Positions 10,595-24,505 of a stretch of DNA of 28,667 bases are shown here, piece after piece. The notes beneath the pieces were generated by a model. The model was not told the origin of the DNA and did no database searches. It saw only the letters and a list, made by a program, of their open reading frames with translations. The position numbers were made by a program, and so were the translations under genes. The number at the start of each line of letters is the position of its first letter. Within the stretch, counting starts at the first letter, position 1. The stretch covers positions 1-28,667 of IMG/VR virus record IMGVR_UViG_3300020054_000423, one strand, 5' to 3'. Source of the DNA: a virus.

Positions 10595-10921
10595 ATGAGT
10601 GAAGAAAACGAAACCGAGTCCGAAGGTTTGTGGCTCGCGCCAAACGACGCCGCCGTGGTCTTTCACGGGGATGGTCGCATCGGCGGCCTGCTCCCTGAGA
10701 TCGACGACGAGGCTGGTATCATCGAGACAGACCCGTGCATGCTGGTCGCGGCCACGCTCGCTCTGCTGCAGGACACGACGCCGCTCTCGCCGGGCGGCAT
10801 GTGCCTGACGCAGTTGATAGCCAAGAAGGCTGGAGAGATCATGATCGAGGCTGCGGCGGATCGGGACCCAGAGCGCGCGTCCGCTATCATCATGCCGGGA
10901 GACGAGGGGTGGATGCAGTGA
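10595..10921 (+). CDS. Hypothetical 108-aa acidic protein
   Basis: It starts MSEENETESEGLWLAPNDAA. An early beta-like segment (AAVVFHGDGRIGGLLPEID) precedes a helical second half (MLVAATLALLQD; LTQLIAKKAGEIMIEAAADR). The ATG has AGGAGGGCGCCC upstream. Its stop overlaps the GTG of the next gene (GTGA). Function not recognised. It probably begins the transcription unit from the 10541 promoter. Confidence 0.8.
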   Translation: MSEENETESEGLWLAPNDAAVVFHGDGRIGGLLPEIDDEAGIIETDPCMLVAATLALLQDTTPLSPGGMCLTQLIAKKAGEIMIEAAADRDPERASAIIMPGDEGWMQ

Positions 10922-11397
10922 GCAACGAAGAGTGGATCACGGTAACCGAGGCAATTGTCTCATACATCCTGCCAGAGGGGTCGGTCCTTCACGAAGATCA
11001 GATGCAGGCAGCCTCTGGTTTGTTTGAGGACGGCACGCTCTCCTTCCTCGACCGGGACGACGCTGGCCGCGTTCGACGCTCGCAGGTTCGCGATATTTTC
11101 ACCACCTCGACAACCGCTCAACTTGTGCTTATTTGCCACCAACAGGCGGCCCAGCTCGACAAGTTGTTTGGTTTTATAGACGCGCTGTTTGAGCGCGTGT
11201 CAGAGGTTGAGGGGGAGATTGAGAGGCTCTGGACCCGTGCCGATGAGGCAGAAATCGAGACGAAAAAGGCGTTAAGCGAAGGTGAGGGGGCTTACTCGTT
11301 CGCTCACAGTCTTGAGTATCTCATCGCTGAAAACAGGGAGAAAATCGACTCCCTCGAAACTGATGTGGTGTGTCTGGAAGAGCGCTTCGATGACTGA
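10918..11397 (+). CDS. Hypothetical 159-aa helical protein
   Basis: The start is the GTG at 10918, overlapping the previous TGA. The protein begins MSNEEWITVTEAIVSYILPE and contains a hydrophobic helix (AQLVLICHQQAAQLDKLFGF) and long charged helices (RVSEVEGEIERLWTRADEAE; EYLIAENREKIDSLETDVV), so it is mainly coiled coil. The frame is open further upstream, but that part shadows the 108-aa gene. It overlaps the next gene by 8 nt. Coiled-coil proteins are frequent in this early right-arm segment, and they may form a complex. No family is recognised. Confidence 0.78.
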   Translation: MSNEEWITVTEAIVSYILPEGSVLHEDQMQAASGLFEDGTLSFLDRDDAGRVRRSQVRDIFTTSTTAQLVLICHQQAAQLDKLFGFIDALFERVSEVEGEIERLWTRADEAEIETKKALSEGEGAYSFAHSLEYLIAENREKIDSLETDVVCLEERFDD

Positions 11398-12262
11398 ACT
11401 TTACCGACTGAAGCATCGGGTCCACGCTCGACAGGTGCCTCCGATGCACGACGATGCCGGGCGCGCGGACTTTGCGCACTGGCTGATATACCAAGCGCGG
11501 CAATCCCCTGTCGTGTTCGAGGGGGCGGCGGTGACAATCGACACGACCTATGGCATGGTCACGGCATTCCCGACGCAATGGGTGGTCGTCACCCGCATGG
11601 GGTCGGTGATGGTCGCAAATGACAGGCAATTTAAACAGGAGTTTGAGCATGAGCCCGGAGAACGGAAGCCCTTGGACAACAGAGATGGAGATCGACCTCC
11701 TCCGCATCTGGAATCTCGGCAAAACAGCGCGGGAGACGATGATCGAGATCAACTATCTGCACTCGAAATCGTTCAGCCGGTCGGCGATAGTGGGGAAGAT
11801 CAGTCGCATGAGGGCGAATGGTCTGGTGGCGGAGAAGAGGCCGAACCCGGTGAATCTGGAGGGGGCGGAGAAGAAACGGCGCAGCCGGATCGTGGCGAAG
11901 CAGCGCCGGGAGAAGGAGCGAGCGATGAAGGATCAGGAAGCGACGGAAAAGAACCCGCTGTTCTCGGAGGTGGGGTCGAAGCAGTGCCGGTATCCGCTTT
12001 GGACGGACACGACGCCCGCGAAGCAGCGCCGGGTGTGTGGGGCGAAGACATCAACGGGAGAGCAGAGCTTCTGCGAGGCGCACCGCGAGATATGCTGGTC
12101 GAAGGAAAAGTCCAAGCCAACAAAGGGCGGGCTGTCGCTGCCGACGATCAAAGCGATAAAAGAGATGTCGAAGGACGGCGTCCCTCTGGAGAAGATAGCA
12201 CGCGTGCAGGCGGTGGCGCTGGAGCAGGTGCATTTTTACGCGGCGAGGTGAGCCATGACTGA
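11390..12262 (+). CDS. Protein whose open frame runs through the whole GcrA-like gene (up to 290 aa)
   Basis: The ATG at 11390 overlaps the previous stop by 8 nt. The first 86 residues (MTELYRLKHRVHARQVPP, later FEGAAVTIDTTYGMVTAFPT and QWVVVTRMGSVMVANDRQF) look like a normal beta-rich small protein. No stop follows: the frame stays open across the whole GcrA-like gene (offset by one base) to a TGA at 12262. The product would carry about 200 extra residues rich in Gly, Glu, Asp and Ser. That tail is either a genuine disordered domain encoded by dual-use DNA or a consequence of GC-biased sequence and a lost stop. The N-terminal part is probably real; the full length is uncertain. Confidence 0.6.
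   Translation: MTELYRLKHRVHARQVPPMHDDAGRADFAHWLIYQARQSPVVFEGAAVTIDTTYGMVTAFPTQWVVVTRMGSVMVANDRQFKQEFEHEPGERKPLDNRDGDRPPPHLESRQNSAGDDDRDQLSALEIVQPVGDSGEDQSHEGEWSGGGEEAEPGESGGGGEETAQPDRGEAAPGEGASDEGSGSDGKEPAVLGGGVEAVPVSALDGHDAREAAPGVWGEDINGRAELLRGAPRDMLVEGKVQANKGRAVAADDQSDKRDVEGRRPSGEDSTRAGGGAGAGAFLRGEVSHD
11649..12251 (+). CDS. GcrA-like cell-cycle regulator homologue
   Basis: GcrA is an alphaproteobacterial transcription factor that binds RNA polymerase sigma70 and acts at promoters with GANTC sites methylated by CcrM. Shared features here are an N-terminal HTH-like SPWTTEMEIDLLRIW (7-21), the SRSAIVGKISR motif (43-53; compare SRNAVIGKVHR in GcrA), CRYP (113-116; compare CxWP), RVCG (128-131) and FCEAH (141-145; compare YCxxH). 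A long basic linker separates the two regions, and there is a C-terminal extension, so the 200 residues are somewhat longer than usual. The ATG at 11649 has AGGAG 7 nt upstream. It lies completely within another open frame. The probable role is to redirect host sigma70 transcription; this is inferred. Confidence 0.85.
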   Translation: MSPENGSPWTTEMEIDLLRIWNLGKTARETMIEINYLHSKSFSRSAIVGKISRMRANGLVAEKRPNPVNLEGAEKKRRSRIVAKQRREKERAMKDQEATEKNPLFSEVGSKQCRYPLWTDTTPAKQRRVCGAKTSTGEQSFCEAHREICWSKEKSKPTKGGLSLPTIKAIKEMSKDGVPLEKIARVQAVALEQVHFYAAR

Positions 12263-13042: not shown

Positions 13043-14707
13043 GTGCCGGACGGCGGCTTTGATTATGATCGGCTGGTCAACGAGGCCAAGCGCGAGAAGC
13101 TGCGGCGCAAGGCTCAGAACGACCTGATCGCGTTCACGCAGTACACCTACCCGAAATATAAGCCAGCGCTACTGCACCGGGCGATTGCGAAGGCGTTGAA
13201 GGCTGTGCTTGATGGCAAGCTGGATCGTCTGATGATCCTGACAGGACCGCGCCACGGGAAATCGGAGCTGTGCTCGAAACGGTTTCCGGCGTTCGCTCTG
13301 GGGCACAAGCCAGACCTGCAGTTCATCTCGACATCGGCGAACATGGACCTCGCCCGGCAGTTTGGCGGCAACGTGCGCGACATCATCGACAGCCCTGAGT
13401 ACGCGGAGGTATTCCCGCACACGAGGCTGCAGCCGGGGCAGGAGAGCCGGGAGCGCTGGGGGACGACGCAGAACGGCATCTTTCAGGCGTTTGGTACGGG
13501 TGGCCGCCCTATCGGCTACGGTGGTGACCTGATTCTTGTGGATGACCCCTTTGGCTCGATGGAAGATGCAGAATCTGAGACGGTACGCCGCAAGGTCCAC
13601 GACTGGTTCTCGACGACGCTGTATCACCGCCTGCAGCCGGGGGGTGCGATGGTGTTGATCAATCACCGGATGCACGAGGAAGACCTGTCCGGCCACCTGT
13701 TGGAGCAGCAGAAGCACGGCGGCGATGAGTGGTTCGTGCTGTCGCTGCCGACGGAGCTTAACAAGGAAGCGGCGAAGCTGATGGGCCGCAAGGAGGGCGA
13801 GGCGCTCTGGCCCGAGGCGTTCCCGCTGGAGGCCCTGCACCGGATCAAGAACAACATCGGGACGCGGGCATACAGCTCGCTGTACCTGCAAGACCCGGCA
13901 GCGGCAGAGGTGGGTATCTTCAAGCGGGACTGGTTCAACCTGTGGCCAAACGAGGAGGAGCTGCCAGTCTTCGACTTCGTGATCCAGAGCTATGATACGG
14001 CATACACGGACAAGACGTCGAACGATCCGACGGCGATGAGCGCGTGGGGCGTGTTCACGGTGCCGAAGTGGCTGAAGCGAGACTATCCGAACGCGCCCGA
14101 CAAGGGCCTGATGCTGATCGATTGCTGGGAGGATCACATCGGTTTCCCGGATTTGAAGAAGAGGATGCACAAAGAGTGGCAGAACGTGACCTACGGGGCG
14201 ACGTGGCAGGCGGAAGACGACGAGGGGCCGATGATCCACGACATGAACAACCCGATGTTCGGTCCCGGATCGAAGGTGCAGCAAGGCAAGAGCGCCGACA
14301 TTGTCCTGATCGAGGACAAGGGCTCGGGGCAGGCGGTTCGTCAGATGCTGCAGCGTGCTGGTGTGCCCGTGGTCCCATATTCGCCGGGCAAACAGGGCAA
14401 GGCGGCGAGAGGACACGCAGCGTCGCCGTTGGCTGAGGCTGGGGCGGTCTGGGTGCCGGAGAGCAAGAAGGTCGGGGATGTGGCGAGCTGGGCGGCTCCG
14501 CTGATCGCGCAGCTCTGCACGTTCACGCGAGAGGGCTCTATTAAGCACGATGACCTGTTCGACAGCGCAACGCAGGCGATGAACTACGCGATCAAGCACC
14601 GGCTGGTGGCCGACGATCCTGATCTGTTGCCTGATCCGACCGAGGGTCAGTTTGCTGATGATGAACCGAGCTTCGGGTCGATGGGTGGGCGCAACGTATA
14701 TGATTAA
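13043..14707 (+). CDS. terL: Terminase large subunit (packaging ATPase/nuclease)
   Basis: The large terminase pumps DNA into the capsid and cuts concatemers. The 554-residue protein has a classic ATPase domain: Walker A GPRHGKSE (68-75), LQFISTSANMDLA (92-104), Walker B LILVDDP (163-169) and a VLINHRMHEEDL coupling-motif region. The RNase H-like nuclease domain follows, with acidic residues in SYDTAYTDKTSNDPT (D at about 317), VLIEDKGSG (about 418-426) and HDDLFDSATQA (about 499-509). It starts with GTG at 13043, has no clear Shine-Dalgarno, and lies 2 nt after the small-subunit stop, so coupling is likely. Its end overlaps the zinc-binding gene by 8 nt. Confidence 0.97.
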   Translation: MPDGGFDYDRLVNEAKREKLRRKAQNDLIAFTQYTYPKYKPALLHRAIAKALKAVLDGKLDRLMILTGPRHGKSELCSKRFPAFALGHKPDLQFISTSANMDLARQFGGNVRDIIDSPEYAEVFPHTRLQPGQESRERWGTTQNGIFQAFGTGGRPIGYGGDLILVDDPFGSMEDAESETVRRKVHDWFSTTLYHRLQPGGAMVLINHRMHEEDLSGHLLEQQKHGGDEWFVLSLPTELNKEAAKLMGRKEGEALWPEAFPLEALHRIKNNIGTRAYSSLYLQDPAAAEVGIFKRDWFNLWPNEEELPVFDFVIQSYDTAYTDKTSNDPTAMSAWGVFTVPKWLKRDYPNAPDKGLMLIDCWEDHIGFPDLKKRMHKEWQNVTYGATWQAEDDEGPMIHDMNNPMFGPGSKVQQGKSADIVLIEDKGSGQAVRQMLQRAGVPVVPYSPGKQGKAARGHAASPLAEAGAVWVPESKKVGDVASWAAPLIAQLCTFTREGSIKHDDLFDSATQAMNYAIKHRLVADDPDLLPDPTEGQFADDEPSFGSMGGRNVYD

Positions 14708-15204: not shown

Positions 15205-15260
15205 TCAGGTTCCGCACGCGACTTCTCCCGGCTCTCGGGATGTGTGGACCTCCCAACTGG

Positions 15261-15285
15261 CGGGGCTTCGGCCCCGTTTTTTTTT
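15261..15285 (+). terminator. Strong intrinsic (rho-independent) terminator
   Basis: CGGGGC (15261-15266), TTCG loop (15267-15270) and GCCCCG (15271-15276) are followed by nine T residues (15277-15285). This textbook terminator ends the terminase unit on the plus strand and separates it from the 15357-21081 cassette. The hairpin core is the same as the two leftward hairpins that lack a U-run. Confidence 0.95.
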
Positions 15286-15356: not shown

Positions 15357-17657
15357 ATGGGCGGCATCGTAAAGCTGGTCGAAGAGGGCGTAGGCGCGCT
15401 CACTCAGGCGATCAGGAACGCGCGCAGGCGCAGGGGGCAGTCGTCCCGCATGGGGCCTGAGAGCGGCCAGACGTATGGCGCTGAGGTGACTGGATCGTAC
15501 CGTGGGCGCAAGACATACAAACCGTCGCGCCCGATGCCAGCCCCGGATGATATGAGCTTGGAAGCGACGCGAGCCCGTATGGAGGCCGCAGGGTTCGATC
15601 CTGACAGCCCGTTCCTGTATCACAGCACGCGCTTTGGCCCGAGCATATCCTCGTCTCCGGGCATGGGTTTTTCCAGAGCTGACAGAGAGGCTCAGAAGGC
15701 TATCTTTACGTCAACTGACCCGAAATCGACCGAGCCATATGGTGGCTTGGATGACTGGGTTGAGATGGCACGGGCCGGGGGCGGGTTTCCGTCTGAGTCT
15801 GTTATGGTCCCACTGCGACATCGCGGTGAGCTGATCGACATTGATTACCCGAAATATGTGCGAGAGCGCTTCACTGATGACGAGCTTCGGGCCATTGACA
15901 TGGACCCCTATCTTCTGGAGGAGGGCTCGTCGTTCCCGTTCCGGCGACCGATCATGAGCCGCCTGATTGATGACTATAAGGGGCAGGCGGAGGGCGTTCG
16001 CGTCCGCAACATGGAAGACATCTTGCCGTGGGAATATGAGGAACTGCGAGGCGGCCCCGATTTCCAATGGCCAGATCAAACGGTTATATTTGACCCGGCG
16101 GACCTGCGTGTTCCGTGGGCTGGTTTCAGGCCAGAGCCTGACGACATGAAGATCAACGATCTGGGCTACGCCGACGGCGGTGAGGTGGATGCGTATAAGT
16201 TCAAGGGGAAGCCCTTGTCTGACGCGGTTGCCGATGCAATGAACCTCGATGAGAATGTTGACTATAGGCCCGTCATGCCATTTATCCCGTTCGTTGGGAT
16301 GAAGGACGGCTCTACCGAGCTTGGCTGGCCCCAGTCGGTGATCGACGCGGTGGCTGGCCTTATGGCATATGGGCACATGGCGAAGGGCGGGGACGTCACC
16401 TACGAGGACATAGCCAACACGGCTATGACCGTTGCCGGTGGGGGCTTGTTAGGAACCAAACCGAAGGGTGCGCTAGGGATGTTCGCGGGCAGGAATGCCA
16501 AAACGGCGGACTTGGATCGTCTGGCGCGGGCTGAGGCTATGGAGGCCGAGGGGGTGGACAGTGAAGCTATTCGCCAAGCCACAGGATGGTTTAGGGGGGC
16601 GGACGAGCACTGGCGGTTTGAGATTGATGACAGCCAATTTAAAGTGAGGGGTCGGAAGGAAGCTAAGGAGCAGAAAAACCGGCGATTGATGGAGGCCGGT
16701 GCCCTAAGTCAACTGGCAAAAGAAAAACAAATGGACTTGAAGATTCAGCCCGATCTTTTCCCAAGCGACGCCAGAGCCGCGATTGCGGATATGAAGGCGA
16801 AGGCGCGAAGCATGAGGCACCAGCCGCCGATGATGATCCCTAACAAAGACACCCTCATGGAAGATTTTGTCGATCATCCTGAGCTTTTTGAGGCTTACCC
16901 TGAGTTAAGAAAATTGATTGCAAAAGACATTGGGAACGTCTTTGATATGTTCGGTTATTATAATGACAACAAAAAGACCATTGGGCTTTCCCGACTAGCT
17001 GCGGGATCGAAGGAGCGCCCTGTAATGGCCCATGAGCTTCAGCACGCAATTCAGGCTATTGAGGGCCACGCTGGAGGCTCTAGCCCAGCTTTCTATCGGG
17101 ACAAGGATGTGCTGTCCCCGGAGTGGGATGAGTTTATTTTAAACACGCAATTGGGTGGCCCAAAGTCTGCGGATTACAAGCGTGTGGCTGATTTTGAGAA
17201 GAGGCCTGATTACTTAGACCTCGAAGACCTCGCGGAAGATATATGGATGGATAATGATTTCCCGGCTCGGTTGGATGAACTTAGAGCTGATTTGTTTAAC
17301 GCGAAGGGCAATGATGATTATGACGGGATTGACGAGGCTACAGAGAAGATCAGGAGCCTCAAGGAGTATTATGTGTATCTCCTAGAGGAGGTTGACCCTG
17401 ATTTGGCTGAGTACAAGCGGCTGAATCTGGTTGAGGGCATCCATACGAATGGACCGAGCAAATGGCTGACAGCCAACGAGGCCTACGAGAAAACTGCGGG
17501 CGAAGTCGAGGCTGTCAATGTCGAGCGCCGGTTAGATTACACGCCTCAAGTGAGGCGCGGGGCAAGCCCGAAGGTAACACAGTCTGTTCCAGATGAGGTG
17601 CAAATCAGGGCTGAGGATTATTACGCTAACGGCGGAGCATTGAGGAGAGTGAGGTGA
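15357..17657 (+). CDS. Polyvalent protein: ART-like domain plus LPD23/HELQH metallopeptidase domain
   Basis: Phage polyvalent proteins combine enzyme domains and are thought to be injected with or act on host DNA. Residues about 86-260 resemble an ADP-ribosyltransferase-like fold: FLYHSTRFG (86-94), AIFTSTDPK with a following Tyr (115-128), VMVPLRHRGELIDIDYPKY (149-167) and the closing QTVIFDPADLR (241-251). Residues about 399-546 match LPD23-type sequence (ATGWFRGADEHWRFEIDD, 408-425). The HExxH zinc motif HELQH follows at 559-563, with the possible third ligand in GEVEA (715-719). The ATG at 15357 (766 aa) follows CGGAG; the frame upstream crosses the terminator and was rejected. Its stop overlaps the next GTG. 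Catalytic activity is not proven. Confidence 0.78.
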   Translation: MGGIVKLVEEGVGALTQAIRNARRRRGQSSRMGPESGQTYGAEVTGSYRGRKTYKPSRPMPAPDDMSLEATRARMEAAGFDPDSPFLYHSTRFGPSISSSPGMGFSRADREAQKAIFTSTDPKSTEPYGGLDDWVEMARAGGGFPSESVMVPLRHRGELIDIDYPKYVRERFTDDELRAIDMDPYLLEEGSSFPFRRPIMSRLIDDYKGQAEGVRVRNMEDILPWEYEELRGGPDFQWPDQTVIFDPADLRVPWAGFRPEPDDMKINDLGYADGGEVDAYKFKGKPLSDAVADAMNLDENVDYRPVMPFIPFVGMKDGSTELGWPQSVIDAVAGLMAYGHMAKGGDVTYEDIANTAMTVAGGGLLGTKPKGALGMFAGRNAKTADLDRLARAEAMEAEGVDSEAIRQATGWFRGADEHWRFEIDDSQFKVRGRKEAKEQKNRRLMEAGALSQLAKEKQMDLKIQPDLFPSDARAAIADMKAKARSMRHQPPMMIPNKDTLMEDFVDHPELFEAYPELRKLIAKDIGNVFDMFGYYNDNKKTIGLSRLAAGSKERPVMAHELQHAIQAIEGHAGGSSPAFYRDKDVLSPEWDEFILNTQLGGPKSADYKRVADFEKRPDYLDLEDLAEDIWMDNDFPARLDELRADLFNAKGNDDYDGIDEATEKIRSLKEYYVYLLEEVDPDLAEYKRLNLVEGIHTNGPSKWLTANEAYEKTAGEVEAVNVERRLDYTPQVRRGASPKVTQSVPDEVQIRAEDYYANGGALRRVR

Positions 17658-18931
17658 GTAAGGTTCGCGCCATTTCCGAACTTGGTGAAGGAGTTTTGCG
17701 TTGGCTTTTCGGGCAACACAACATTACACCGGGCGGTCTAAAGATAGCAGATAAGGCCGGAGGCCTTTCGATGCCGTCAATTGCCATCTCGCGGGCGGAC
17801 ACACCGCTTGAGAAGTTCGGAGAGATCACGCTTATGGCCAACCCGGACCTTGTGACGCCATCCCGGACAACAAGGGTTTGGCCGAACGACGCTTATACCG
17901 GGCGGCAGCCAAGGTCTGAGACGTATTTTGCCAACAAGAAAGATTATTTAAGGAACATCGCCTCTGACCCGGATTTGGGGCATTTAAGAGATATAGGCTA
18001 CGCGCATGAGTCATTGGGTGGAATCGGAGGCGGCGTTGACGATTTCGACAAGAGGCTGAGAGAGATTCAAGCAGCGCAGGAGCTGGGGATCATCAACCCG
18101 TCTGATTATGATAACATGGGAGACCTTTGGATGGATTCGATGCAGGCCCTGCGGCAGGTATCTGATGCGTCGCGAGAAATGGCCATGAAAAATGCTGGCG
18201 GTCTTTCTAGGTACGCTGAATTGCAAGAAATGCTCCCGCGCGGGTACTCTCCGAGTGGGAACCGCCTGAAGCCTGTTCCCTACACGATTGAGAATGTTTT
18301 CAAGCAGATGAAGAAAGAGGGCGCTGGCTTTGCTGGTGGCGAGAACTTCATTTATGGAGCCCCGTCATTCCGCGCCGAGGTGTCGTATCCGTTTGATGAT
18401 TTGGCTGATATAAAGGCCAACAGGGGGCGCATATATTCCCCTGACGCAATGATGCCAGTTAAGGACCAGTTCGACGAAGACGTCATGGATGTTGCTTCTC
18501 TCGTGGCTGGTGAGCTTGGTGGTGACGGAGGGATGCGCGGGATTGATGACGCGCTTGCTTACATGACGGATTTTGCCAAGACCGGCAGGCGTCCTAAGTG
18601 GTCGGATAAAGACATTAGCCCGGAGGCTCAGGAGCGGATTAAAGAAGTAGCGCATCAGGCGCGGAATATGGCGACGGAGTATTTTGAGGCGAAGCCGCGT
18701 CGCATTGTGCAGCTCTCTGAGTTTGCTGGCGCGATGATCCCGGACGGCCTCCCTCCTGAGACTGAGCAGATACTCAAGAAGCACGGGATTGAGCGTATTT
18801 TCAAGTATGGGGAAAATGAGGATCGCGCGTCGCTTCTTCATAATTTTAAAGACCTGATGTTCTCTCTAGCCCCTTATGCTATCATCTCCGGCGTTGCCGG
18901 AGGCGCGTTGACCGAAGATGGAGAATTATAA
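17654..18931 (+). CDS. Polyvalent-associated domain protein (425 aa)
   Basis: Residues 29-86 (IADKAGGLSMPSIAISRADT, FGEITLMANPDLV, and NDAYTGRQP) match a segment that recurs in giant phage polyvalent proteins: a GGLxxPSIAIxK...FGxITLI...DAYTxRxP pattern with no known activity. The rest is helical with ELQEMLPRGYSPSG and SYPFDDLADIKANRGRIYS, also reminiscent of such proteins. A hydrophobic stretch, FSLAPYAIISGVAGGAL (about 402-418), lies near the C-terminus. The GTG at 17654 forms GTGA with the previous stop and has GGAGAGTGAG nearby; its TAA forms TAATG with the next gene. Translation of the cassette is clearly coupled. Biochemical role unknown. Confidence 0.75.
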   Translation: MSKVRAISELGEGVLRWLFGQHNITPGGLKIADKAGGLSMPSIAISRADTPLEKFGEITLMANPDLVTPSRTTRVWPNDAYTGRQPRSETYFANKKDYLRNIASDPDLGHLRDIGYAHESLGGIGGGVDDFDKRLREIQAAQELGIINPSDYDNMGDLWMDSMQALRQVSDASREMAMKNAGGLSRYAELQEMLPRGYSPSGNRLKPVPYTIENVFKQMKKEGAGFAGGENFIYGAPSFRAEVSYPFDDLADIKANRGRIYSPDAMMPVKDQFDEDVMDVASLVAGELGGDGGMRGIDDALAYMTDFAKTGRRPKWSDKDISPEAQERIKEVAHQARNMATEYFEAKPRRIVQLSEFAGAMIPDGLPPETEQILKKHGIERIFKYGENEDRASLLHNFKDLMFSLAPYAIISGVAGGALTEDGEL

Positions 18932-20355
18932 TGGCTGGTAAACTTGGCGGACTGGCAAAAGCGGCGGGATATATCGTTGACGAGGTTGGTGATGCGGTTA
19001 TGCCCTACGTCGATGACGCTATTAGTGCGGTTGAGGATTTCGCGCGTGGGCCTCGTGGGCCTAGCCGTGAAATTGACCGCATACCTTCTCGCTTGCCGGG
19101 GACAAAATCGCCTATTGATGACCCGCTTGACAGGACACTAACGATTGACAGAGAGGCAGCGGTGCGCGCTCCAGAGGTCTATGAGCACAATGTTCGGCGA
19201 CTGACCGATATTCCGGGCCTTGGTCACCTTTCTGACGCGGCTGATGTTGCCGAAATCGAAGGCGAGGCAATGAAGCACTTCGAGGACAACCTACAGTTCT
19301 TGATTGACATAACGCCAGCGGGAAAGGTGGCACGGAACAGAGAATGGTATGTCGGCGCTAATAATTTTGCGCACACTCTTGCTGACAGGTATGGGCTTGA
19401 TCACCGCAGTGTTGCTGGGACGATTGCCGCCCTTTCTCCACAGAAGGACTGGTATCAGAATGCGTCTCTGGCGGAGCGGATGGCTGATATCAATTTCCAA
19501 AAATCAGACGTGGTCACATCCAATGACATGCTCGATTTCGGGATGAACAACCTGAAAAAACAAGAGCAAATTGATGTCTTATCAGATATAGCCGGGAAAA
19601 GGCTATCTGATCTGGATACTGACTTGGAACGGGCTGTTTGGATACGTCTCTATGACGAGGTGCATAACCCTAAGCACTATCGGGAGTTCACTCCAGATGG
19701 GATGCTCGGTGATTTTGTGAAGAAGGGCGACGGCACTGACCGGAAGGTTTCTTGGGGTTCTTTCAACGAAATCATCAAGGCAGACAAGGCGCTGAGGTCC
19801 GGTGGTGATTTGGATACTTTGAGCAACCTCATGGGGACCAAGCACAAGGTGCGTTCGTTCTTTAACAACAACGCTGACCCGTTTAGCCCGTATGACGACG
19901 TGACTGGGGACACGCACCAAGTTGCCGGTAACACTCTTATGCCATATAGTGGGAACTCGGGTCCGGTGCAGCAAAACTTCGGGACTGCCTCGTTTGGTAC
20001 GGCAGGAAAGCCGGATAACTGGGTTCCGGCCAAAAGCGCGAACCCACTAGGCGTTCACGGGACGTACCCGTTCCATGCGGACGCAGTGAGGAATGTTGCG
20101 CGCCGTAACAACTTGATGGGCCGAGAAGGTCAGTCGGTCACTTGGGAAACGATCAGGGAGATGTTCCCCGCTGCCGATAAGAACCCGGAGTTTATGAACA
20201 GGGTTGCTAACATTTGGCGGTCGGTAGAAAGAGGAGAGATCAATGCAGGAGAAGCTAGAAACCGTATTGCGAGAATTGCCCGCAGACCTTCGCCCCTCGG
20301 CGAGGGAGGACGGGGTGTTGAACTACTTGATCCAAAAGAAGCGTCCACTTACTAA
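18931..20355 (+). CDS. DUF7178/HhH-glycosylase-like protein of the polyvalent cassette (474 aa)
   Basis: Residues 139-174 (WYVGANNFAHTLADRYGL, then VAGTIAALSPQKDW) resemble the (A)N..A..LA..YG......AG..AALSPQ..W pattern of DUF7178-like phage proteins. Farther on, KVRSFFNN (306-313) and VTGDTHQVAGN (324-334) occupy the place of the K..xF..N and VDTHV segments of helix-hairpin-helix DNA glycosylases, where the Asp is catalytic. A base-excision or DNA-binding role is therefore possible but unproven. The N-terminal 130 residues are unrecognised. The ATG at 18931 overlaps the upstream stop. Its last 37 codons (from about residue 438) overlap the next gene in another frame. Confidence 0.75.
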   Translation: MAGKLGGLAKAAGYIVDEVGDAVMPYVDDAISAVEDFARGPRGPSREIDRIPSRLPGTKSPIDDPLDRTLTIDREAAVRAPEVYEHNVRRLTDIPGLGHLSDAADVAEIEGEAMKHFEDNLQFLIDITPAGKVARNREWYVGANNFAHTLADRYGLDHRSVAGTIAALSPQKDWYQNASLAERMADINFQKSDVVTSNDMLDFGMNNLKKQEQIDVLSDIAGKRLSDLDTDLERAVWIRLYDEVHNPKHYREFTPDGMLGDFVKKGDGTDRKVSWGSFNEIIKADKALRSGGDLDTLSNLMGTKHKVRSFFNNNADPFSPYDDVTGDTHQVAGNTLMPYSGNSGPVQQNFGTASFGTAGKPDNWVPAKSANPLGVHGTYPFHADAVRNVARRNNLMGREGQSVTWETIREMFPAADKNPEFMNRVANIWRSVERGEINAGEARNRIARIARRPSPLGEGGRGVELLDPKEASTY

Positions 20356-20539
20356 AAAGGCGTATCGATCTCTCGCCTCCATGTTTGATTCTGAGTTGGA
20401 CGATGTTCAGATGGAGATCGTTCGGGTGCTGCCAGCGAAAGAAGACGGCGATATACAGGGGACATCCCAGCCACGCGGTCAGATGTACGACCGCCGCGTC
20501 GATGACCGGGGGTACTTCCTGCCGCCGGAGGGCATGTGA
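20243..20539 (+). CDS. Hypothetical 98-aa protein
   Basis: It starts MQEKLETVLRELPADLRPSA, continues with LNYLIQKKRPLTKKAYRSLA and an acidic helix (SELDDVQMEIVRVLPAKED), and ends GYFLPPEGM. The ATG at 20243 has a strong GAGGAGAGAT ribosome site, although it lies 113 nt inside the 474-aa gene. Both overlapping frames look like protein, so this is a genuine long overlap or an old frameshift. Its TGA forms TGATG with the next ATG. Function unknown. Confidence 0.72.
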   Translation: MQEKLETVLRELPADLRPSAREDGVLNYLIQKKRPLTKKAYRSLASMFDSELDDVQMEIVRVLPAKEDGDIQGTSQPRGQMYDRRVDDRGYFLPPEGM

Positions 20540-21081
20540 TGGGCCAGAAATACGTCGTAAACCCAGCGTTCGGTATTGAGGGCGACGAGGTAGACAGCCG
20601 CAGCAATACTGAGGCTGCGCTGGATTACCTGTCGTCGATGTCGAGAGTGGCCGGTCAGGGCCTAACGATGGGCTTCGGCGACGAAATCGTCGCGGGGATT
20701 GAGGCGGGTCTTTTCGGTGGGGATTATGACGAGGCGCTGGCTAGGGAGCGTGCTATATACGATCAAGCCTACGAAGACCACCCGGTGTCTTCGGTTCTGG
20801 TAGAGATCGGCGGCACGCTCGTTCCGGCTAGCCTGTTATTTAAGGCACTCGCCCCTCTCCGTCTCGCCCGCGCTGGTCAGGCGTCGGCGACCGGTGCTAT
20901 TGAGGAGGGCATCGCCGGGTTCGGCTCTGGGCAGGGTTTCGATGACCGTGTTGACAGTGCCGCTGAGCGTGCTCTTTTAGGCGCGGTCGCTGGGCCGGTG
21001 GTCGAGGCTGGCATGAGGTCAGCCGGTCGCGGTATCCGCAAAACTGGCGGCGCGCTTCGCCGATTCGCGAGGCGTCGTTGA
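20539..21081 (+). CDS. Gly/Ala-rich helical protein, likely internal or ejected virion protein (180 aa)
   Basis: The segment SSMSRVAGQGLTMGFGDEIV and then IEAGLFGGDYDEALARERAI, with YEDHPVSSVLVEIGGTLVPA, matches a well-known N-terminal pattern of large phage internal proteins and polyvalent proteins (xGLTxGFGDEIEA...YxEALA). The rest has hydrophobic, Gly-zipper-like helices, and the C-terminus is Arg-rich (RGIRKTGGALRRFARRR). The ATG at 20539 has GGAGG 8 nt upstream. Possibly a membrane-interacting ejection protein located in the virion; the role is inferred from the pattern. It is the last gene before the portal. Confidence 0.75.
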   Translation: MGQKYVVNPAFGIEGDEVDSRSNTEAALDYLSSMSRVAGQGLTMGFGDEIVAGIEAGLFGGDYDEALARERAIYDQAYEDHPVSSVLVEIGGTLVPASLLFKALAPLRLARAGQASATGAIEEGIAGFGSGQGFDDRVDSAAERALLGAVAGPVVEAGMRSAGRGIRKTGGALRRFARRR

Positions 21082-21106: not shown

Positions 21107-21133
21107 TATGACAGCACCATAGAGGGTATTTTG

Positions 21134-23839
21134 ATGGGCGGACGCGAGCGTATGCCGGGCATGGGGCCGGAGCTGACAGACGCAGAAGAGGTTCTCTTCG
21201 GCGAAGAAGAGATGATGCCTGATGGGGGTATGATCGACGTCGGCGTTGAGGAAAACGCCTTCGATGAGATGTCTGAAGAAGACCTCATGGAGCTGATCAT
21301 GGGCGGCGGCGAAGAGCTGCCCGAAGAGAACCCGATTAACGAGTTTTCGGTTAACTTGGCGGACTATCTGGACAAGGCCGTTCTGGATGGTATTGGCGAA
21401 GAGCTGTGCCTCCTGATCGAGAACGACGTTGAGGCGCGTAAGAAACGCGCGGAGCAGTACGAGGAAGGGATCAAGCGCACAGGGCTCGGTAACGACGCGC
21501 CCGGTGGGGCTGATTTCCCCGGCGCATCTCGCGTGGTTCACCCCATGCTGGCCAAGTCTGCCGTTGATTTCGCGGCCACCGCTTCGAAGGAGCTGCTCCC
21601 GCCTGATGGGCCGGTTAGAGCGAAAATCCTGAACGAGGAAGAGCCGACAGCGCTGAAGCGTGCGGAGCGCAAGAAGCGTCATATGAACTATGTGCTGATG
21701 CACAAGGTGCCTGAGTTTGTCCACGAGCACGAGCAGTGCTTCACGCAGCTCCCGCTTGGCGGCGATGGTGCGATGAAGTGGTGGTGGGAAGATGGCCGCC
21801 CGAACTGTGAGTTTCTGACCACCGACCGGGTGATCCTGCCATATTACGCGACCGGGTTCACGTCCGCGCGTCGTCGCACCCTGATCTACGATCTGGAGAA
21901 GGTCGAGATCGAGCGCCGTGTCCGTGAGGGCATTTACATCCGTGGGCCGTTTGACGATGCGGAGAGCCAGAGCCCAGAGCAGAGCGGGCCGGAGCTGGCC
22001 AACGAGAAGGTCGAGGGTAAGGAAGAGACCGGCAGCAATCTGGATGGTGTGCGCCGCCTATATGAGGTCTACGTCTATCACAACATGGACGGCGAAGACC
22101 CGCTCCTGATTGAGAATAGCGATGAGCAGCTCGAAGGGGACGGCACGGACGAGAGCAATTCAGACAGCGCGCCGGGCTGGTACATCATTACGATTGACGA
22201 GTTGTCGAAGGAAGTCGTCGCGATCTACCGGAACTGGGACGAGGAAGATTTCATTGCGCGCGGCGTGATTACGGAGATTCAGCACGTCGTTCCTTGGGGT
22301 TTCATCCCGTGGGAGGGCGCGTACCACGTCGGTATGACGCACATCATCGGCAGCATCTCGGGCGCTACGACAGGCGCTCTCAGGGCGTTGCTCGACAGTG
22401 CTATGATCCAGAACACTCCGGGCGGCATCCGTATGAAGGGTGCTCGCACGTCAGGCGAGAACATCAACCCGTCGCCGACGGCTATTACTGAGATCGATGG
22501 CGTTGAGACGGATGACATCCGCAAGGTGTTTATGCCATTCCCGTATGCTGGTCCCTCGCCGGTTCTGTTCCAGTTGCTGGGCTTCTTGGTCGAGCAGGGG
22601 CAGAGCGTCGTCGCGACGGCATCGGAGAAAATCGCAGAGGTTAATCCACAGGCCCCGGTCGGCACCACGCTGGCGCTGATTGAGCAGGGCGCGAAGGTTA
22701 TGTCCAGCATCCACATGAGGATGCACCGGGCGATGGCGGCAGAGCTGCAGATCGTTCACCGCTTGCTCGCGGAGAACATGAGCGACGAAGAGCCGCTCGA
22801 TCTGGCGTCGAAGGATATGATCACGGCGGAAGAGTATCAGGTTCCAATGGACGTGATGCCGGTGTCGGACCCGAACATCTTCGCTGAGGCCCAGCGCTAC
22901 GCGATGCTGAACGAGGTCGTGAACCTGATTTCCAATCCGGTTTTCCAGAACCTGAACTGGGATGTTGAGGCGATTGCTCGCCGCATTCTGGAGCAGCTCA
23001 AGGTTCCCGACCCGCAGTCGCTATTGCCGGAACCGCCGGAACCACAGCCTGCGAACGCGGTCGAAGAGAACGTCCAGATGACGAACGGCGCGCAGCAACA
23101 GGTGTTCCCGCATCAGGATCATGAAGCGCATCTGGTGATCCACCTGCTTTACCTGTCTAGCCCGATCTTCGGTCAGAACCGAATCATTGTTCAGACGCTG
23201 GCCCCGGCCATGCTGCAGCACATCAAGGACCACCTGTCTATGTGGTACGCGAAGGCAATGGGCGAGGCCGTTGAGCAGATGACGCAGATACCGATGGAAC
23301 AGCTCATGCAGGTTGACGCCCAGCCGCAGTCTGCGGACCCTGAGCAGCAACAGCAACAGCCTCAAACGGACCAGATGTCCACGCTCTTTGCGAACGTGGC
23401 TAGTGACGTCGTGAACGGCGCTGGGACGATGTTCCAACAGCTCCCGGCTATCATTGAGATGACGACGAAGCTGCTTGAGGAATTGAACCCGAACGAGGTT
23501 CAGATCGAGGCGGTGAAGGCTCAGGGAGATGCGAACCTGAAGATCGCTCAGGCGGAACAGATCAAAGCTCAGGTCGATGCTATCGACAGTGAGCGCGAAG
23601 AGAACAGAAAAGACATCCAGCTCGGGCTCGATGCGCAGATCAAGCGCCGCGAGCAGGCCCGTAAGGAGCGCGAGACGGATGCACGGATCGAGGAGGCGGA
23701 GGACAAGCGCGCCGCCGATCTCGAAAAGGCAGCGGCACAGATCGAAAGTTCTGAGTATGTCGCGGAAGCCAACAATGAGACGCGCTTGACCATTGCGGAG
23801 ATGCAGAACGATGGGAAAGAAAGCCCCAGCGACCGGTAA
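21134..23839 (+). CDS. Portal protein
   Basis: The portal forms the dodecameric ring through which DNA enters and leaves the capsid. The 901-residue protein has a long acidic N-terminal extension, then GADFPGASRVVHPMLAKSAV, the portal-like FTQLPLGGDGAMKWWWEDGR and LTTDRVILPYYATGF segments, MTHIIGSISGATTGALRALL, a TPGGIRMKGAR loop and QAPVGTTLALIEQGAKVMSS, all typical of podovirus/siphovirus portals. The C-terminal part is helical with a Gln-rich stretch (PEQQQQQPQTDQ) and a charged coiled coil. The ATG at 21134 follows AGAGGG with 7-nt spacing; a TTG one codon before is less likely. It overlaps the 33-aa ORF at its 3' end. Confidence 0.92.
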   Translation: MGGRERMPGMGPELTDAEEVLFGEEEMMPDGGMIDVGVEENAFDEMSEEDLMELIMGGGEELPEENPINEFSVNLADYLDKAVLDGIGEELCLLIENDVEARKKRAEQYEEGIKRTGLGNDAPGGADFPGASRVVHPMLAKSAVDFAATASKELLPPDGPVRAKILNEEEPTALKRAERKKRHMNYVLMHKVPEFVHEHEQCFTQLPLGGDGAMKWWWEDGRPNCEFLTTDRVILPYYATGFTSARRRTLIYDLEKVEIERRVREGIYIRGPFDDAESQSPEQSGPELANEKVEGKEETGSNLDGVRRLYEVYVYHNMDGEDPLLIENSDEQLEGDGTDESNSDSAPGWYIITIDELSKEVVAIYRNWDEEDFIARGVITEIQHVVPWGFIPWEGAYHVGMTHIIGSISGATTGALRALLDSAMIQNTPGGIRMKGARTSGENINPSPTAITEIDGVETDDIRKVFMPFPYAGPSPVLFQLLGFLVEQGQSVVATASEKIAEVNPQAPVGTTLALIEQGAKVMSSIHMRMHRAMAAELQIVHRLLAENMSDEEPLDLASKDMITAEEYQVPMDVMPVSDPNIFAEAQRYAMLNEVVNLISNPVFQNLNWDVEAIARRILEQLKVPDPQSLLPEPPEPQPANAVEENVQMTNGAQQQVFPHQDHEAHLVIHLLYLSSPIFGQNRIIVQTLAPAMLQHIKDHLSMWYAKAMGEAVEQMTQIPMEQLMQVDAQPQSADPEQQQQQPQTDQMSTLFANVASDVVNGAGTMFQQLPAIIEMTTKLLEELNPNEVQIEAVKAQGDANLKIAQAEQIKAQVDAIDSEREENRKDIQLGLDAQIKRREQARKERETDARIEEAEDKRAADLEKAAAQIESSEYVAEANNETRLTIAEMQNDGKESPSDR

Positions 23840-23913: not shown

Positions 23914-24129
23914 GTGAATCGGCAGCCACGCTACTATGAATCGGAGACGGTACATCGATTCATAGACAGACTTGAACAGGAGATAAGTGAGAGGCAGGAA
24001 GCCCTGTGGAAGACGCATGAGCCAGAGACGTACTCGCGACGGTCTGGGATCATCTCAGGGCTTTCTCAATCGTTAGACATTCTTCATAGCCTTCAGGAGG
24101 AGTTAGATGAAGAAAAAAACAAACTTTGA
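23914..24129 (+). CDS. Hypothetical 71-aa helical protein
   Basis: It starts with a GTG at 23914 just after the previous stop: MNRQPRYYESETVHRFIDRL. It continues as a helical, charged chain with LSQSLDILHSLQEELDEEKN at the end. No strong ribosome site is present, so it depends on coupling to its neighbour. It overlaps the co-chaperonin gene by 23 nt. Probably a small accessory to the head genes. No domain is recognised. Confidence 0.7.
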   Translation: MNRQPRYYESETVHRFIDRLEQEISERQEALWKTHEPETYSRRSGIISGLSQSLDILHSLQEELDEEKNKL

Positions 24130-24505
24130 TCCGTGGCCTCAAGTCGATCCGGGCGTGAAACCGGTCGGGGCACGCATTCTCGTTCAGCTTCGCTCTGTTC
24201 AGGAGAAAACGGCTGAGGGGATTTATCTTCCCAACGAGACGAAAGAAGCCGAAAAGTGGAACACGCAGGTTGGCAAGGTCATTTCGACCGGGCCGCTCGC
24301 GTACAAGGACCGGCGCACGATGGAGCCCTTTGAGGAGGGCGCGTGGTGCGAAACCGGAATGTTTGTTCGGGTTCCTAAGCATGGTGCTGACAAGTTCGAG
24401 GTCGAGGCAGAAGGCGGGCAGAAAGTTCTGTTTGGCATCTTCGACGACACGAACGTCATTGGGCAAATCACCGGCGACCCGCTTGCGGGCGCGGCAGCAT
24501 ATTAG
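24107..24505 (+). CDS. GroES-like co-chaperonin
   Basis: GroES-type proteins cap the GroEL chamber; phages such as T4 and RB49 encode their own versions (Gp31, CocO) to fold the major capsid protein. Visible marks are VGARILVQLRSVQEKTAEGI and YLPNETKEAEKW (the GroES start, with the KTAGGIxLP mobile-loop pattern), VGKVISTGP, FEEGAWCETGMFVRVPKHG and a C-terminal VLFGIFDDTNVIGQI. At 132 aa it is longer than bacterial GroES (about 97 aa), with an insertion around 60-80. The ATG at 24107 follows AGGAGGAGTTAG. Its place between portal and capsid genes supports a role in capsid folding. Confidence 0.82.
   Translation: MKKKTNFDPWPQVDPGVKPVGARILVQLRSVQEKTAEGIYLPNETKEAEKWNTQVGKVISTGPLAYKDRRTMEPFEEGAWCETGMFVRVPKHGADKFEVEAEGGQKVLFGIFDDTNVIGQITGDPLAGAAAY

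Follow-up and report, generated by a model that had tools for sequence, protein, structure and literature searches.

Gene content of the terminase-portal interval

The window analysed here, a virus record of 28,667 bases taken at its full length, carries the following features from the gene for the terminase large subunit (TerL) to that for the portal protein (E-values from iterated profiles run optimistic).

13043..14707, + strand: TerL gene, the left landmark of the slot (phrog_38, E 2.7e-96)
15259..15278, + strand: hairpin and U-run resembling an intrinsic terminator, upstream of the cassette (8 pairs, 6 of them G-C)
15357..17657, + strand: P1, 766 aa, with an N-terminal ART-like part, LPD23, a putative HELQH metallopeptidase and a disordered tail
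16479..16646, + strand: LPD23 domain of P1, residues 375-430 (Pfam PF18838, E 1.1e-24, 86.4 bits, cut-off 27)
17031..17045, + strand: HELQH zinc-peptidase motif of P1, residues 559-563, from a 34-sequence alignment
17654..18931, + strand: P2, 425 aa, with a PBECR5 (predicted nuclease) domain and an uncharacterised C-terminal part
18931..20355, + strand: P3, 474 aa, with DUF7178 (PF23802) and a predicted HhH-DNA-glycosylase-like fold
20243..20539, + strand: P4, 98 aa, starting inside P3
20536..21081, + strand: P5, 181 aa, Gly/Ala-rich (phrog_5880, E 1.5e-16)
21134..23839, + strand: portal (head-to-tail connector) gene, the right landmark of the slot

The interval between the two landmarks holds two small ORFs followed by five coupled ORFs, P1 to P5, referred to here as the cassette. 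A preliminary description of this DNA, which took the five to be pieces of one giant phage polyvalent protein, had placed all of them correctly, including the 98 aa P4 and the Gly/Ala-rich P5, and the overlaps that it read between them are present: GTGA joins P1 and P2 at 17654-17657, TAATG joins P2 and P3 at 18931, and GTGA/TGATG joins P4 and P5 at 20536-20541. P4, which is preceded by a good ribosome-binding site, overlaps P3 by 113 nt (20243-20355) in a different frame, and 52 nt separate the end of P5 from the portal ATG at 21134. The strong terminator said to lie upstream of the cassette is less secure: the hairpin and its U-run are there, but the region has no more terminator-like hits than shuffled sequence (nine found, 9.4 expected).

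The portal protein is 38-42% identical to those of Caulobacter phages RW and GB2A and to that of MW202545; in GB2A (L001, 2445-5248), the TerL annotation is in two parts, separated by a DNA methyltransferase gene. A GroES-like co-chaperonin gene, conserved in relatives, is found between the portal and major capsid genes of the window (24107-24505; phrog_3188, E 1.2e-8).

Domains of the five proteins

The LPD23 domain previously read in P1 is borne out by its Pfam score. For the HELQH metallopeptidase the motif stands, H559, E560, Q562 and H563 being near-invariant in the alignment of 34 sequences of relatives, but the Pfam match to the DUF6782 metallopeptidase is weak (E 0.0017, 18.1 bits) and falls below the 27-bit cut-off; the fold matches of this part, to jannalysin and IrrE, are also weak. 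The start of P1, described as ART-like, has no Pfam match, although residues 1-285 weakly resemble the ART-PolyVal profile (PF18760; hhalign probability 16%, E 0.0016 over 47 columns), and a true ART-PolyVal domain occupies the equivalent place in one relative, L131. The AlphaFold model of P1 has good confidence in LPD23 and the peptidase only. Among predicted viral structures it matches large polyvalent protein associated domain proteins (best E 8.4e-13); Foldseek of P1 against the PDB gave no significant match, and the PDB rows obtained in a second look fall mostly on the helical stretch 601-694, hence are uninformative.

What had been called a polyvalent-associated domain in P2 is PBECR5 (PF18814; E 9.1e-15, 55.6 bits against a cut-off of 25), matched over profile positions 20-96 of 239 only. 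From start codon to end, P2 aligns with a 519 aa gene of Roseobacter phage CRP-901; a search pattern built from P2 alone matched no viral contig, and the alignment with CRP-901 was needed.

The DUF7178 assignment of P3 likewise holds (E 5.1e-17, 62.9 bits against a cut-off of 27), and the HhH likeness suggested for it is seen in the predicted fold. Three residues of P3, K172, D173 and D327, are invariant. The AlphaFold model of this protein has a pLDDT of 86.6 and is disordered from residue 455 onward. All nine of its best rows in the second-look PDB comparison belong to the HhH-glycosylase superfamily, headed by the queuosine glycosylase DUF2419 (Z 8.7 over 223 residues, rmsd 4.3); Z is 7.8 against AGOG and 5.6 against OGG1, whilst unrelated rows reach 3.5 at most. 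As Foldseek itself found no significant match for P3 in the PDB, the HhH-GPD glycosylase-like fold predicted by the model is a lead, not proof.

The only profile match to P4 is a weak one, phrog_22556, and no relatives were found in phage records. P5 has relatives in the N-terminal portions of longer phage proteins, and also in a gene found near the P2 relative in the CRP-901 group. No MuF domain was detected by Pfam in any of P1 to P5, and a search of NCBIfam returned nothing useful. With LPD23 and the conserved, putative HELQH peptidase domain, P1 has at least two domains in one chain, as polyvalent proteins do by definition; P2 to P5 have one recognised domain or none each, leaving P1 as the only one of the five that is polyvalent by itself.

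A variable slot in related phages

The interval between the TerL and portal genes was surveyed in 101 loci selected by the portal gene alone; these are metagenomic and many are partial, and because relatedness makes loci non-independent, any test based on counting loci or motifs is no more than indicative. The slot varies greatly in size, being 150 bp or less in 34 loci, 150-1000 bp in 15 and more than 1 kb in 52. ORFs of at least 120 aa number one in 34 of these 52 larger slots, two in nine, three or more in seven and none in two, the commonest filling being a single long ORF; the largest, in the wider set, encodes 2315 aa. Domains found on slot ORFs are ART-PolyVal, PcfJ, GP88, ASCH, LPD23, DUF7178 and DUF6782, and ORFs combining LPD23 with the peptidase occupy the slot in 17 loci, the window included. 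Two slot ORFs near a DUF7178 ORF (L038, 13267-15642; L059, 3406-5859) contain long low-complexity Ala/Ser/Pro or Gly-Thr repeats.

The domains recognised in the cassette are those of polyvalent proteins, as had been proposed, and a fused relative of the kind that this proposal calls for does exist: in L320, a single 2415 aa ORF immediately 3' of the portal gene contains PBECR5, ART-PolyVal and LPD23. A 758 aa ORF in the terminase-portal slot of L131 carries ART-PolyVal, LPD23 and DUF6782, which is the architecture proposed for P1. The same parts also occur as neighbours in various orders. The LPD23-peptidase part of P1 (P1c) is followed by P3 as an adjacent ORF in L072, L078 and L081, P3 is followed by P2 in L250, P5 is followed by P1c in L214, and P2 lies near P5 in eight loci of the CRP-901 type, CRP-901 included. 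CRP-901 and the window both have a PBECR5 gene accompanied by a P5-like gene, which in CRP-901 lies some 170 bp downstream; unlike in the window, the CRP-901 pair sits between the portal and GroES genes, and the terminase-portal slot there is empty.

Since fused, neighbouring and solitary forms are all seen, reassortment of the domains has produced fusions as well as sets of neighbours. The statement that they are normally fused was too strong: solo PBECR and other domains have already been described (PMC5512222), and the median length of ORFs here is only 575 aa for the P2-type domain and, among complete ORFs, 774 aa for the P3 type. The view of the cassette as a split polyvalent protein is hence only partly upheld, since fused relatives exist but solo forms are common, and the set in the window is only partly split, as P1 is itself multidomain. 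A frameshift or assembly artefact as the source of the split was considered and rejected; P2 aligns from start to end with the stand-alone gene of CRP-901, and DUF7178 ORFs to which P3 aligns are widespread as separate genes.

Exchange of the cassette between sister phages

Comparison with a sister phage (L084) draws attention to four further features of the window.

16167..16181, + strand: YADGG in P1, the point where P1 of the sister phage ends (as YANGGALRRLR-stop)
17622..17636, + strand: YANGG at the C terminus of P1, which ends YANGGALRRVR
17628..17651, + strand: 24-nt stretch AACGGCGGAGCATTGAGGAGAGTG, which recurs unchanged at the end of the otherwise dissimilar second cassette gene of the sister phage
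21122..21133, + strand: right end of the exchanged stretch, directly ahead of the portal ATG (blastn homology resumes at 21122)

The TerL genes of the two phages have no nucleotide difference in 554 codons, and their portal genes differ by 39 synonymous and four non-synonymous changes in 867 aligned codons. The first 46 residues of P1 are identical; beyond these the sister phage has a diverged allele, which over 273 codons shows 81 synonymous and 71 non-synonymous differences. Homology between the cassettes ends just past YADGG, by 16212. P1 of the window runs on past this point into LPD23 and the peptidase. From the YAxGG inside P1 to the ribosome-binding site of the portal gene, the sister phage has other genes, and the cassette has been replaced. 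A sister phage with an identical terminase and other cassette genes is a new observation, and as its gene set differs at the same place, P1 to P5 are not inherited as a fixed unit.

Two gene ends recur in cassette genes of the two phages that are otherwise dissimilar. The 24-nt stretch is likely to include the ribosome-binding site of the next gene, P2; it is a repeat at the level of DNA, and could stem from recombination or from a ribosome-binding site in common. The last 19 residues of P4 match the tail of a 731 aa cassette gene of the sister phage, with a score that none of 100 shuffles reaches; a relative of P5 in the sister phage is not significant (12.5% of shuffles reach its score). The G+C content of the cassette is 54.2% in the window and 53.8% in the sister phage, against 61.6% for TerL. 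A search for further close relatives of the window using a portal DNA pattern found only the contig of the sister phage. A second divergent patch distinguishes the two phages at 10735-11800 of the window, where identity is 80-92% amid otherwise identical DNA; it includes a 220 aa gene at 10735.

A short motif enriched in slot proteins

In an unguided count of all patterns of the form a-b-x-c-d over 107 non-redundant slot ORFs (85,336 aa), MAxGG, YAxGG and FAxGG ranked at the top, beside only runs of unknown residues and one other pattern. The three occur 38, 38 and 35 times, where shuffles give 1.8, 2.4 and 2.1. V is often found two residues after the GG, giving the consensus [MYF]AxGGxV. The enrichment of this motif in slot proteins is a new finding, and a search of open-access text for the motif strings retrieved no relevant paper. 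The DNA differs in 87 of 93 copies, which implies that the constraint acts on the protein, and makes it unlikely that the motif is in general a DNA recombination site. Of the copies in L320, those at 1112, 1344 and 1724 come after the PBECR5 part, the ART and the LPD23-peptidase, respectively, and one at 2388 is near the C terminus.

YAxGG may be a generic flexible linker or surface loop with no specific partner, an explanation to which we give somewhat less than even odds: most copies are in linkers rather than domains, those of P1 sit in low-confidence, probably disordered stretches of the AlphaFold model, and the composition around the motif is not unusual. A mere linker, however, accords poorly with a place among the most enriched spaced patterns, with the absence of any copy from the portal and terminase proteins, and with the clustering of copies at C termini, where the last 30 residues contain 19 of the 128 copies found in 182 cargo ORFs, 3.9 being expected. 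Our own reading of these sequences is that the motif may be a module-end signal. In a more specific and rather unlikely form of this reading, [MYF]AxGGxV would be a common signal of ejected cargo, either a cleavage site or a capsid-docking tag, placed at the ends of modules and letting domains be fused, cut or separate yet still loaded.

In phages with filled slots, a repeat protein that also has many copies of the motif is encoded downstream of the major capsid gene, and it could be the partner of such a signal. A repetitive Lys/Gly-rich protein starting MGQFKPMVKM, with many copies of [YF]KKGG and YAxGG, has its gene about 5 kb past the portal gene in the following loci.

L002, 18808-20157: MGQFKPMVKM repeat protein
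L119, 17376-18410: MGQFKPMVKM repeat protein
L128, 12673-13857: MGQFKPMVKM repeat protein
L148, 13606-14613: MGQFKPMVKM repeat protein

By the criterion applied, motif-rich genes of this kind accompanied filled slots in 11 of 23 loci, and short or empty ones in none of 18 (Fisher p 0.0008, relatedness being ignored).

A probable interchangeable cassette of ejected cargo

The block in the window is most likely a cargo cassette in the variable terminase-portal slot of a podovirus-like phage lineage, and we assign a probability of roughly 0.65 to its being an interchangeable cassette of proteins that are made late, enter the capsid, are ejected with the DNA and act in the host. Polyvalent proteins of phages and conjugative elements are a class for which packaging and injection have been proposed (Iyer et al. 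2017, PMC5512222). The cassette resembles them in having LPD and PBECR domains, with candidate ART-like and metallopeptidase domains, adjoining terminase and portal genes, in a terminase-portal phage and among late structural genes; it differs in that its domains are spread over coupled ORFs, in a slot that in relatives holds one long ORF or nothing. Packaging and ejection we infer from this gene position and from what has been published on polyvalent proteins (PMC5512222), and enzymatic activity of the cassette proteins is presumed. Filled relatives mostly use one long polyvalent-type protein, whilst the window spreads the same kinds of domain over translationally coupled ORFs. The proteins would be made late alongside the head proteins, enter the capsid and be ejected together with the DNA, after which P2 as a PBECR5 nuclease, P3 as a glycosylase-like DUF7178 enzyme and P1 through its ART-like and zinc-peptidase parts might act against host defences or reprogramme the host; recombination would swap cassettes between near-identical phages. 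Co-ejection of enzymes with the DNA, as proposed for the cassette, is the mechanism of T4 Alt, an ART, and of the virion RNA polymerase of N4, which has a peptidase domain; both are packaged and ejected head proteins (PMC5512222).

About one third of the portal-selected relatives are without any slot genes, which shows that these are dispensable and counts against the cargo reading. It would suit late accessory genes, moron-like and serving anti-defence or host modification, which occupy a tolerant insertion site between terminase and portal genes and are never packaged, as would the G+C content of the cassette, lower than that of its flanks, and its replacement as a block. We consider this rather unlikely, because what mostly fills the slot is long proteins of the polyvalent type, for which packaging has been proposed (PMC5512222), and because a motif common to slot proteins suggests a common fate. 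That the five ORFs are fission products of one giant polyvalent protein and still form one complex, as the preliminary description had it, would fit the fusion in L320 and the coupled start and stop codons but is improbable given how common solo versions of the domains are, the assembly of polyvalent proteins from solo domains that the literature favours (PMC5512222) and the different gene set of the sister phage.

Giant polyvalent proteins are thought to be injected, and the question is how so many unrelated domains share one route. Near-identical phages with a natural exchange whose border falls at a shared short motif offer a tractable test of what can be loaded into a capsid and of whether a fused and a split version are equivalent. 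Should the motif signal loading or processing, sequence alone would suffice to identify ejected effectors in many environmental phages.
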